From assembly GCF_017583045.1 (NCBI RefSeq), contig NZ_JAGFBF010000001.1:186001-250000 (forward strand): a stretch of 64,000 nucleotides of DNA. The letters run 5' to 3'. The position numbers and the translations under genes are program-made. This stretch comes from Leucobacter tardus. Lineage in GTDB: Bacteria; Actinomycetota; Actinomycetes; Actinomycetales; Microbacteriaceae. Below are positions 1-48,547 of the stretch, piece after piece. Numbering within the stretch: the stretch's first letter is position 1; each line of letters begins with the position of its first letter. Under the pieces are notes generated by a model, which saw only the letters and a program-made list of their open reading frames with translations, was not told where the DNA came from and searched no databases.

Positions 1-51
1 CACGAAACCATTACGCTGCCATCTTAGCGTGTCATTCGCGACCGGCGCGCA
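1..51. other. Left window edge, no supportable gene
   Basis: These 51 bases follow the last complete gene of the envelope operon, which reads leftward. An ATG on the minus strand at 9-11 (reading Met-Val-Ser and then out of the window) could start a further gene, but three codons are too few to support a call. In comparable actinobacterial clusters a PP2C-type phosphatase often follows; that is expectation only. Confidence 0.2.
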
Positions 52-44351: not shown

Positions 44352-45425
<1,074 letters not shown>

Positions 45426-45454
45426 GGCGAGGTCCACGGCGGGTCCGCTGCCCT

Positions 45455-45529
45455 GTCCACCGGTCGGGCCCGCCGCTCCGTCCACCGGTCCGGCCCGCTG
45501 CTCCGTCCACCGGTCCAGCCCGCCGCTCC
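45455..45529. repeat. Three tandem 25-bp repeats after trpS
   Basis: Units at 45455-45479, 45480-45504 and 45505-45529 begin GTCCACCGGTC and differ from one another at only one to three positions; a fourth, truncated copy begins at 45530. They are directly joined, so this is a minisatellite and not a CRISPR array. Each unit contains the 6-bp palindrome ACCGGT. They end 12 bases before the left palindromic element of the DUF559 unit. Confidence 0.9.
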
Positions 45530-45540
45530 GTCCGTTTCAT

Positions 45541-45590
45541 TGCGGGAATCTGTGCGATATACCTGCTTGAAGAGCACAGAATCCCGCACT
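45541..45590 (+). repeat. Palindromic element L flanking the DUF559 gene
   Basis: Arms TGCGGGAATCTGTGC (45541-45555) and GCACAGAATCCCGCA (45574-45588) pair at 14 of 15 positions around an 18-base loop. The element matches element R (46703-46754) in arm sequence, loop length and loop sequence (TAT, CC, TTGAA and AGA in the same order) and in orientation. A further partial copy, TTGCGGGAATC, repeats at 45591-45601. Confidence 0.85.
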
Positions 45591-45713
45591 TTGCGGGAAT
45601 CGCGGTGTGCTCGGGTCGCTTTCCTCTGTGCACACCTCTCGCCTCAACTGAGTTGTGAACAGTGCCAGCTCTCGAGCCCGCATCGTCCTGAGTGCTCCGC
45701 GCACAATAGGGGT

Positions 45714-46736
45714 ATGCCACGCGTACGTCGGCCTCTCCCTGAAACACTGGACCGCGTGTTCACGCGATCCGAGGCGAGAGCGGCAGGCGTCGCAAGCCGC
45801 CGACTGGACGCACCCGATGTCGAACACCTCGCGTTCGGCGTATACCGCCGCGTGCTGACAGAATCCGATTCGAGCCTGCATTCCGCCGCCACCTGGCGGT
45901 GCCGTCAGCGCGATCTCGCTCGGGCGATACACCGTTCTCTGCCCGAGCACGCGTTCTTCTGCGGCCGCACGGCGGCGGTGCTCTGGAACCTGCCCGTTCC
46001 GGCGGGAACAGATGAGCGCGTGGACGTGGGAGCGACCGTTCCGGACCGGCCTCCCGAACGCGCCGGGATCCGCGGCACCCGATTCCAGGCCCACCTGGCG
46101 TCGCGAACGACGCTCTCAGGCACGCCCCTGATCGGCGCAGTCGACCTCTGGTGCACGTTGGGTCCACGTCTCGCTGATGACGACCTCGTCGCACTCGGCG
46201 ATGCCATCGTGCGTCGCGAGAGGATCCCGGGAACACAACGGCTGAAGCGACCCCCACTCGCAGACATCGAGGCCCTCGAACACGCTGCCAACGCGGGTCG
46301 GCGTGCGGGCATCGCGCGCCTGCGGCGAGCCCTGCAACTCCTGTCCCCGGACAGTGCGTCTGCCCCCGAGACCCACCTCAGGCTGCGATGCCGCGACTGG
46401 GGGTTCCCGAAACCTGAGTTGAACAGCGACGTCCTCGATGCGGACGGCAGACTTCTCGGCTGCAGTGATCTCGTATTTCGGGACTATCGAGTCGCCCTGG
46501 AGTATGAAGGAGACCACCATCGCGTCGACGCTCGTCAATGGGACCGGGACATCGCGAAGATCAGGGAACTCACGCAAGCTGGGTGGACCGTGATCCGCGT
46601 CACCGCACGGATGCTGTATCGAGACGACTTCGCGCTACGCATGGCGATCGAGCAGGCGCTCGTCCAGAGAGGGTGGGTTCAGCAGACCCCACGCCCCGCA
46701 AGAGTGCGACATTCTGTGCCGTATCGCCTTGAATAG
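45714..46736 (+). CDS. DUF559 (Vsr-like) endonuclease-domain protein
   Basis: 340 residues. The C-terminal ~100 residues carry the DUF559 core, VALEYEGDHHRVDARQWDRD then IRELTQAGWTVIRVTARML, which belongs to the Vsr/PD-(D/E)xK nuclease superfamily; Glu, Asp and His candidates for metal binding are in EYEGDHH. The N-terminal ~80 residues (DRVFTRSEARAAGVASRRLDAPDVEHLAFGVYRRV) resemble the AbiEi-type winged-helix region often found in such proteins. The ATG at 45714 has no clear ribosome-binding site. Its last ten codons and stop lie inside palindromic element R, and element L lies upstream. GC drops to roughly 55-62% in parts of the nuclease-coding section, below the neighbours. Gene neighbours are unrelated housekeeping and transport genes. 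Role unknown: defence, repair or a mobile passenger. Confidence 0.82.
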   Translation: MPRVRRPLPETLDRVFTRSEARAAGVASRRLDAPDVEHLAFGVYRRVLTESDSSLHSAATWRCRQRDLARAIHRSLPEHAFFCGRTAAVLWNLPVPAGTDERVDVGATVPDRPPERAGIRGTRFQAHLASRTTLSGTPLIGAVDLWCTLGPRLADDDLVALGDAIVRRERIPGTQRLKRPPLADIEALEHAANAGRRAGIARLRRALQLLSPDSASAPETHLRLRCRDWGFPKPELNSDVLDADGRLLGCSDLVFRDYRVALEYEGDHHRVDARQWDRDIAKIRELTQAGWTVIRVTARMLYRDDFALRMAIEQALVQRGWVQQTPRPARVRHSVPYRLE

Positions 46737-46754
46737 AACACAGAACGCCGCACT
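46703..46754 (+). repeat. Palindromic element R overlapping the DUF559 stop
   Basis: Left arm AGTGCGACATTCTGTGC (46703-46719) and right arm ACACAGAACGCCGCACT (46738-46754) pair at 14 of 17 positions around an 18-base loop. The right arm read on the other strand, AGTGCGGCGTTCTGTGT, and the matching arm of element L, AGTGCGGGATTCTGTGC, show these are copies of one motif. The DUF559 stop codon (46734-46736) lies in the loop. Confidence 0.85.
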
Positions 46755-46785
46755 GAAGCGGGCGCGGCCGGGCGGGCGCGGGCGG

Positions 46786-46829
46786 GCGGGGCGGGCGCGA
46801 GCGGGCGGGCGCGCTCCCGCCCGCCCCGC
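46786..46829. terminator. GC-rich terminator hairpin after the BCCT gene
   Basis: Two 18-bp arms (46786-46803 and 46812-46829) pair at 17 positions around an 8-base loop, ending one base before the BCCT stop codon. The region upstream to 46760 is a run of GGGCG/GGCGC units. It can end both the BCCT and the DUF559 transcripts. Confidence 0.75.
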
Positions 46830-46830
46830 G

Positions 46831-48495
46831 CTACTCCGCCGCGGCGTCGCGCGCGTCCGGCCGGATCGCGCGCGCCATCTCGTCGTGGGTGACGGGTCGA
46901 GTGCCGGCGAACCTCGCGTCGTTCCGCAGTTCTTTCACGAGGGAGACGCCGAGGAGCGCCACGATCACCGTGAACGGTACGGCCGACAGGATCGCCGCCT
47001 GTTGCAGCGCTTGGAGCCCGCCGACGATGAGCAGCACGATCGCGCACACCCCCGTGAGCACTCCCCACACGCCCAGCACCGGTTTCGTCGGGTTCATGGA
47101 TCCGCGTGACGAGAGCACGCTGAGCACGAACGTGTTCGAGTCGGCTCCCGAGACGAAGAAGAGCGCCACCATGAGCACGGTGAGGACCGAGGTGATGGCC
47201 GAGAGGGGCAGTTCCCCGAGCACCGCGAAGAAGGTGGTGTTCGTGTCTGCGAGCGTCTGTTCGCCGATCGAGGTGCCCCCGAACATGTCGAGGTTGATGG
47301 CGGTCCCGCCGAAGATCGTGAACCACACCGTGAAGACGGCGGTGGGCACGCCGAGCACGGCGATGACGAATTCGCGGATCGAGCGACCCTTCGAGATCTT
47401 CGCGAGGAAGATCCCGACGAACGCTCCCCAGCTGAGCCACCAGGCCATCATGAAGTAGGTCCACCACTGCATCCACTGCAGGTCTTCCGGGCTGTTGGGG
47501 GTGAGCAGCGCCACCATCGGGAACTCGGCGATGAACTGTCCGAACGAGCGGAAGTAGAGGTTGGAGATGAAGCTGGTGGGGCCGACGACGAGCACGTAGA
47601 CGCCGAGTGCGGCGGCGGCGAGCATGGTGGCCTGGCTGATCCATTTGATGCCGCGGGCGACGCCGGAGAGCGCTGACAGGGTGAAGATCACGGTGATGCC
47701 CGCGATGATGATGATCTGCACGAAGAGGTCGGTCGGCAGTCCGGTGAGCCGGTTCACGCCCTCAGCGATCTGCGAGGCGCCGAGTCCGAGCGAGGTGGTC
47801 GTGCCGAAGAGCGTGGCGATGATCGTGAAGACGTCGACGAGCTTGCCGAGCCACCCGTCCATGCTCTTGCCGAGCACGGGCCGGAGCATGGGCGAGACGA
47901 GACCGGTGTTGTGCCTGCGGTGGGTGGAGTAGGCGATCGCGAGTCCGAAGACGCCGAACAGGGCCCACGCGTTCGGCCCCCAGTTGAAGTAGGAGAACTG
48001 CATGGCGGTGACGGCGGCCTGCATGGTCTCGGGCTCCGCGAATCCGTGCGGCGGGTCCATGAAGTGGGTCATGGGTTCGGCTGCACCGTAGCTGATGAGG
48101 CCGATGCCCATGACGGTGCCGCAGATCATGGCGATCCATGCCCAGTTGCTGTACTCGGGCCGGTCGTGGTCTTCGCCGAGTCGCACGCGACCGAATCGGC
48201 TGATCGCGAGGTACAGCATGAGCACGATGCACCCGGTGGTGACGGCGAGGTAGGCCCACCCGATGTTCCGTGCCGACCAGTCGGACGCGGTCGTCATGGT
48301 GGCGCCGAGGTGCTCGGGCCAGATCGAGGCCCAGAGCACGAAGACCAGGATCAGCACCGTGGAGATGTAGAACACCGCCCCTGGCCGGTACCGCTGCTGC
48401 TCTGCACGCACCACGTCGATGGAGTGGGTGAGGAACGACTCGTCGTCGCCCCCCGGCCCGGGGCCGAGACCCGAGGAATCCTGCTGAGTGCTCAT
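46831..48495 (-). CDS. BCCT-family betaine/carnitine/choline transporter
   Basis: 554 residues with about 12 helices and a hydrophilic N-terminus. The family signature region reads WWLSWGAFVGIFLAKISKGRSIREFV, and the glycine- and tryptophan-rich helices (GIGLISYGAAEPMTHF, FSYFNWGPNAWALFG) are typical. BCCT carriers import quaternary amines such as glycine betaine, choline, carnitine or ectoine. Start at ATG 48495, with AAGGA ten bases upstream. It lies downstream of the SnoaL-flavin reductase gene on the same strand and next to the GntR-controlled oxidative genes, so its substrate may be what that pathway degrades rather than only an osmolyte. Confidence 0.94.
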   Translation of the reverse strand: MSTQQDSSGLGPGPGGDDESFLTHSIDVVRAEQQRYRPGAVFYISTVLILVFVLWASIWPEHLGATMTTASDWSARNIGWAYLAVTTGCIVLMLYLAISRFGRVRLGEDHDRPEYSNWAWIAMICGTVMGIGLISYGAAEPMTHFMDPPHGFAEPETMQAAVTAMQFSYFNWGPNAWALFGVFGLAIAYSTHRRHNTGLVSPMLRPVLGKSMDGWLGKLVDVFTIIATLFGTTTSLGLGASQIAEGVNRLTGLPTDLFVQIIIIAGITVIFTLSALSGVARGIKWISQATMLAAAALGVYVLVVGPTSFISNLYFRSFGQFIAEFPMVALLTPNSPEDLQWMQWWTYFMMAWWLSWGAFVGIFLAKISKGRSIREFVIAVLGVPTAVFTVWFTIFGGTAINLDMFGGTSIGEQTLADTNTTFFAVLGELPLSAITSVLTVLMVALFFVSGADSNTFVLSVLSSRGSMNPTKPVLGVWGVLTGVCAIVLLIVGGLQALQQAAILSAVPFTVIVALLGVSLVKELRNDARFAGTRPVTHDEMARAIRPDARDAAAE

Positions 48496-48547
48496 GCGGT
48501 ACACGTCCTTGTGTCGGAAGGATGGCCTGGCGCGGCCATTGGATGGG

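Follow-up and report, generated by a model that had tools for sequence, protein, structure and literature searches.

The stretch of DNA analysed (the window) comprises 64,000 nucleotides of the Leucobacter tardus contig NZ_JAGFBF010000001.1. Between trpS (44415-45425, + strand) and a convergent BCCT transporter gene (46831-48504, - strand) it carries a 340-codon gene for a probable DNA-cutting enzyme, which is bracketed by two palindromic elements, L and R. The features of the locus are the following:

45539-45590, no strand assigned: palindromic element L, 123 bp upstream of the start codon
45714-46736, + strand: nuclease gene, 340 aa (AbiEi-like region plus predicted EDxHD/Vsr-fold region)
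45723-46346, + strand: residues 4-211, AbiEi-antitoxin-like region
46353-46676, + strand: residues 214-321, predicted nuclease domain with E219, D252, E263, H269 and D279
46703-46754, no strand assigned: palindromic element R, containing the last codons and the stop codon of the gene (46734-46736)

The open reading frame list contains a longer frame from 45540, and the start given above was chosen from homologues. Three head-to-tail copies of a G+C-rich 25-bp unit lie between trpS and element L (45442-45533), and similar low-complexity repeats adjoin several other copies of the element. Just after R, between the convergent genes, there is a very G+C-rich, terminator-like inverted repeat (46775-46840). 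The G+C content of the gene is 0.663 against 0.695 for the window, at third codon positions it is 0.716 against 0.923 for trpS, and the last third of the gene is the lowest (0.604).

The first-pass annotation described L and R as homologous palindromes with an 18-base loop, and this was confirmed. Both are 52-bp dyads with 18-nt loops, the three arm sequences it gave are exact, and the arms showed 1, 0, 2 and 3 mismatches to TGCGGGATTCTGTGC. In the comparison of L against R the score was 30, which was not reached by any of 2000 base shuffles of L (maximum 24). Pairs of 15-base arms spaced 33 bases apart recur at 11 places on five of the seven contigs of the genome, with the consensus AGTGCGGGATTCTGTGC-N2-TAT-N8-ATA-N2 followed by the reverse complement of the arm. 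A covariance model trained on these copies recovered the 11 loci and no more (22 matches on the two strands, 93 of 729 first-look candidates being scored), all with the same arm spacing. In order to test whether L and R belong to this family independently of their first recognition, a model was built from the other nine copies. It found L and R as the only significant matches in the window (E 1.4e-11 for R and 4e-8 for L, the next being 1.5). Two copies 204 bp apart elsewhere in the genome (contig 1, 146966 and 147170) share an identical 18-nt loop, the only such pair among the 11, which suggests a local duplication. An Rfam search of 45000-47400 gave no match up to E 1.

The gene matches Pfam MTES_1575 (30.4 bits, cut-off 38.2) and DUF559 (15.1 bits, cut-off 20.6) only below the curated cut-offs, while the predicted fold is clearer. 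The AlphaFold model is confident (pLDDT 93.1). Foldseek alone gave no match at E 0.001 or below, and its top two rows were mitoribosomal; the fold assignment rests on a second structural alignment with VIA-align and on a profile search. In the former, residues 214-321 aligned best with the catalytic domain of the homing endonuclease I-Bth0305I (3r3p_A, Z 13.0, 97 residues aligned, rmsd 2.6) and with Vsr (1cw0, Z 11.1), and the best PDB sequence match of the profile is the same homing endonuclease (3r3p, E 8.9e-4). Residues 4-211 aligned with the AbiEi antitoxin (6y8q, Z 7.9, 174 residues aligned, rmsd 7.3). This alone would be weak, since a common arrangement may suffice in this range, but it agrees with AbiEi profile hits: the widest of the PADLOC AbiEi models matched 10 of 50 relatives (best E 3.3e-7) and Pfam AbiEi_4 matched 2 of 50. 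Over 50 homologues E219, H269 and D279 are invariant, position 252 is always acidic and E263 is present in 49, which fits the EDxHD name. I-Bth0305I is described as dimerising on a target of nearly 60 bp (PMC3943268), and AbiEi is reported to bind inverted repeats of up to 23 bp per arm, spanning about 50 bp, by its own gene (PMC3985639). An AbiEi-type binder joined to an EDxHD nuclease is therefore a plausible reader of such a palindrome. No Y1 transposase was found in the genome in a search with PF01797 at E 0.001, other transposase families being outside that search.

Within this genome the link between the gene and the palindromes looks weak, since 9 of the 11 copies lie elsewhere and the two other MTES_1575 matches are not bracketed. 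The comparison across species reverses that. Of 54 genomes of the genus 46 hold a homologue, and of 66 loci tested 38 have an upstream and a downstream flank which match each other better than the 99th percentile of 2000 mismatched, non-syntenic pairs (19 of the 2000 do so). A neighbour-interval control gave 1 of 31, and a separate clade of five DUF559 genes, among them another relative in the window's own genome, gave 0 of 5; thus not every DUF559 gene is bracketed. In other genera of the family 19 of 28 loci exceeded all 756 mismatched pairs, and in 11 other families of the order 31 of 40 loci exceeded their 99th percentile. Of about 120 listed match rows of the genus 30 loci came with the search and 40 more were added, plus the relative just mentioned; five gene fragments and one further locus (L055) were dropped to leave the 66, whereas all 72 were kept in the overall count. 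The 28 loci of the family and 20 of the 40 of the order were best matches, while the other 20 were selected to cover more families. In the tree on which the clades are based, rows under 250 or over 400 residues were dropped and three loci (L089, L090 and L055) were counted as bracketed by hand. Over the three sets 89 of 140 loci were called bracketed and 51 were not, with median gaps of 119 bp upstream and 34 bp downstream of the protein match. The window's own locus (score 32) and that of the sister genome G011 (31) fall below even the 95th percentile (33), because their two copies have diverged, thus the membership of L and R rests on the genome-wide family and not on this test. Three bracketed homologues (in genomes G024, G008 and G009) are interrupted, the largest open part covering 0.37, 0.73 and 0.87 of the protein match, so some cassettes keep their palindromes with a broken gene. 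The protein family, bracketed or not, occurs in 69 of 100 sampled genomes of the family and in 108 of 149 of the order.

The matching stretches are mostly palindromes whose sequence differs between nuclease lineages. Of the 89 bracketed loci 77 have a palindrome in the upstream stretch, 78 in the downstream one and 70 in both, against 4 of 176 equally long background segments from the same flanks. Ordinary intrinsic terminators or chance hairpins in a G+C-rich genome were also considered, since the elements are intergenic and long G+C-rich hairpins occur after trpS in a good part of the 30 genomes looked at. However, the sequence-specific families with constant arm spacing, the matching pairs on both sides of one gene family in the window's family and 11 others, the neighbour-interval control and the low background of palindromes exclude this as a general account, and we regard it as very unlikely.

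In sister genome G011 the gene also lies beside trpS, with a clear downstream element and a degenerate upstream one. A search with default filters missed both elements, while an unfiltered search found the downstream one (E 2.3e-7) and the upstream stretch only at E 1.2. The upstream element is supported by a flank comparison, in which it scored 29 to one dispersed copy (0 of 500 shuffles as high) and 23 and 18 to two others (3 and 71 of 500). In a third genome, G033, where the gene lies beside trpS the other way round, a palindrome was seen on one side only. With the window's own model 7 of 60 genomes including this one had a match, and the matches in the others were of more or less different arm types. 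An exact search of 398 genomes of the family for the core GTGC-N2-TAT-N8-ATA-N2-GCAC hit 3, and only 1 of the 11 copies of this genome, thus it was too strict to be informative.

In order to test dispersal, 21 palindromes from 16 genomes were joined into one query and searched in those genomes and in two controls. Ten genomes gave 41-50 match rows and three gave 20-22 (both strands counted, at most 23 candidates scored), while G459, G451 and G002 gave 5, 3 and 2, too few to show dispersal; G002 and G459 are incomplete assemblies. The two controls, the window's genome (G000) and G011, whose nucleases have other palindromes, gave none. Among the rows listed, hits outside the genome of origin were confined to the pair G001/G013, whose nucleases are sisters, and part of one row in G405. 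Of 29 solo copies examined none lay wholly inside a called gene, one overlapped a gene start by 55 bases, and 18 were between tandem, 7 between convergent and 4 between divergent genes; the gene calls were made by codon composition and are approximate.

The palindrome type follows the nuclease and not the genome. Among 38 bracketed loci 4 of 4 cross-genome pairs share a palindrome at protein similarity 0.7 or more, 7 of 24 at 0.5-0.7, 6 of 86 at 0.4-0.5 and 1 of 576 below 0.4 (Mantel rho 0.185, 0 of 2000 permutations as high), and 0 of 13 same-genome pairs share one. Many cassettes sit at syntenic places in several species, so much of the pattern is vertical descent, and co-inheritance alone gives part of the correlation between protein and palindrome. 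These results bear on the possibility that the palindromes serve some host function or another element, and that the nuclease gene merely inserts beside or into them because such intergenic regions tolerate insertion. In its favour, different nuclease lineages can share a neighbourhood (the gene of G453, of another clade, lies beside a flank shared with G405 and G016), and gene-free sites can hold a lone palindrome, as described below. Since each lineage has its own palindrome even inside one genome, most bracketed cassettes have a matching palindrome on each side, and palindromes of other lineages gave no match in G000 and G011, we consider hitch-hiking unlikely.

Signs of movement were seen between gltA and dapD (our reading of the flanking gene ends), where both flanks are shared. 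The cassette lies one way in G004, G008, G462 and G022 and the other way in G031 and G461. These six genes belong to an 11-protein clade whose other members lie elsewhere in at least four cases (G456, G459, G463 and a second copy in G461), G007 being unresolved at contig ends. Beside trpS (G000 and G011 one way, G033 the other) and at a third place (G405 and G016 one way, G453 the other) only one flank is shared, thus these two cases are weaker. Genomes without the gene at gltA-dapD hold a lone long palindrome, in some beside terminator-like hairpins (G017, G018, G026 and G030), none (G453, with a gap of 64 bp, and G002) or other hairpins, and no footprint could be defined. This fits insertion, or inversion by recombination between the flanking palindromes; it proves neither.

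The form in which the palindrome might be recognised was examined in 30 chosen copies of G013 and G001, cut to a fixed length around their centre. The arms lie at the same distance throughout, with no gap in the alignment, and differ by 0.058 per site, while the 15-nt loop (columns 30-44), which no mechanism explains yet, is nearly as different as random sequence (0.630 against 0.669 expected). The arm changes come in matched pairs (23 two-sided changes against 11.0 +/- 2.6 in shuffles, 0 of 500), although two of the five covariation measures are unexceptional (49 and 121 of 500 shuffles as high), and the 11 copies of the window's genome show no excess on any measure. Constant spacing suggests a bound dimer, and paired changes suggest an extruded form or correction of one arm by the other. 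Since the shuffles do not remove relatedness, the covariation is suggestive only, and replication errors alone might also keep palindromes symmetric.

The constant spacing and conserved arms would also be expected of a maintained binding site, and the first-pass annotation had itself allowed for a regulatory hairpin family. In such a reading the protein is an autoregulated nuclease, perhaps for phage defence, the upstream palindrome is its operator, the downstream and dispersed copies are regulon or titration sites, and nothing moves by the action of the nuclease. The binding of AbiEi to palindromic repeats in its own promoter (PMC3985639), the AbiEi profile hits, the median distance of 119 bp between the upstream element and the protein match, and the 18 tandem and 4 divergent positions of solo copies, where a promoter can lie, are in line with it. 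However, an operator does not need the near-copy downstream, seven of the 29 solo copies lie between convergent genes, two-sided pair changes are not expected of independent half-sites, and the cassette changes place and orientation. We find this reading doubtful, but less so than hitch-hiking.

The proposal of the first-pass annotation, that a nuclease gene is moved or maintained with REP-like palindromes, is supported, although its suggestion that the protein acts on them, much as RAYT proteins act on REPs, is not shown. In our view the association between this nuclease family and private, dispersed palindromes is close to certain, and it is likely that the protein recognises them. That it spreads them and itself is the best single account, which we hold somewhat more probable than not, but it is unproven. 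In this model the protein recognises its own palindrome of roughly 50-75 bp through the AbiEi-like region, probably as a dimer, and the EDxHD region cuts or nicks there, most likely when the palindrome is extruded as a hairpin or cruciform, for example during replication. Repair or re-joining would then copy the palindrome, and sometimes the whole palindrome-gene-palindrome cassette, into other intergenic sites, and the upstream copy may also serve as operator for autoregulation, as known for AbiEi. Binding, cutting, copying, spreading and autoregulation are inferred; none of binding, cutting or transposition has been seen, and no site was aligned base by base before and after insertion. If the enzyme cut double-stranded palindromes freely, the resident copies would be dangerous targets, so cutting must be conditional.

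The closest known arrangement is the REPtron, the RAYT/TnpA-REP transposases with their REPs, in which the gene is likewise flanked by two cognate palindromes, the palindromes are dispersed in intergenic DNA, each protein has one palindrome family with more than one pair possible per genome, and the two co-evolve (PMC2817692, PMC6006769, PMC8266576). The enzyme encoded here, however, has a predicted EDxHD/Vsr-type nuclease fold and not that of a HUH Y1 transposase. The two copy families measured have 52-bp and about 73-bp dyads with 18- and 15-nt loops, against 20-40 bp for REPs (PMC3733652), and GTAG is near either foot in 1 of the 11 copies of this genome. The cassette sits at different places in related species, whereas REPtrons are said not to transpose as a unit (PMC6006769). 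In TIR-flanked tyrosine transposases (TIRtrons) a gene also lies between two related, partly self-complementary repeats, some with further copies elsewhere (PMC3733652), but the enzyme is unrelated. With EDxHD homing endonucleases and Vsr the protein shares the predicted fold and the E-D-x-H-D residues. An AbiEi-like region takes the place of the known DNA-binding region, palindromes stay on both sides instead of a target split by the insertion, and no intron or intein was seen, although none was searched for. Compared with the AbiEi antitoxin of the AbiE type IV toxin-antitoxin system, the AbiEi-like region is fused to a nuclease, and the palindromes lie on both sides and are dispersed in the genome.

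No description of DUF559 or MTES_1575 genes with palindromes was found in the open-access literature searched (PMC3710099 among the papers consulted), where the few hits for DUF559 look unrelated. It is possible, though we put it forward only tentatively, that a second, independent solution to the REP/RAYT arrangement is present across many families of actinobacteria, in which fused AbiEi-EDxHD nucleases each own a private palindrome, keep two copies around their gene, and use cutting at palindromic structures to seed further copies, and at times their own gene, into intergenic DNA in either orientation; it would be a palindrome-homing element. A second system with an unrelated nuclease would show that palindrome-enzyme partnerships arose more than once, and would offer many natural enzyme-palindrome pairs for biochemistry and a role for some DUF559/MTES_1575 proteins that databases list as unknown. 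The window's own genome also carries a second palindrome type (arms around CGAGATTGCGCAA), whose nuclease was not identified, in the gap between two genes on contig 5 (within 769900-771200). One copy was called by script and a second, about 130 bp away, by eye, and sister genome G011 has a similar one at the same place.
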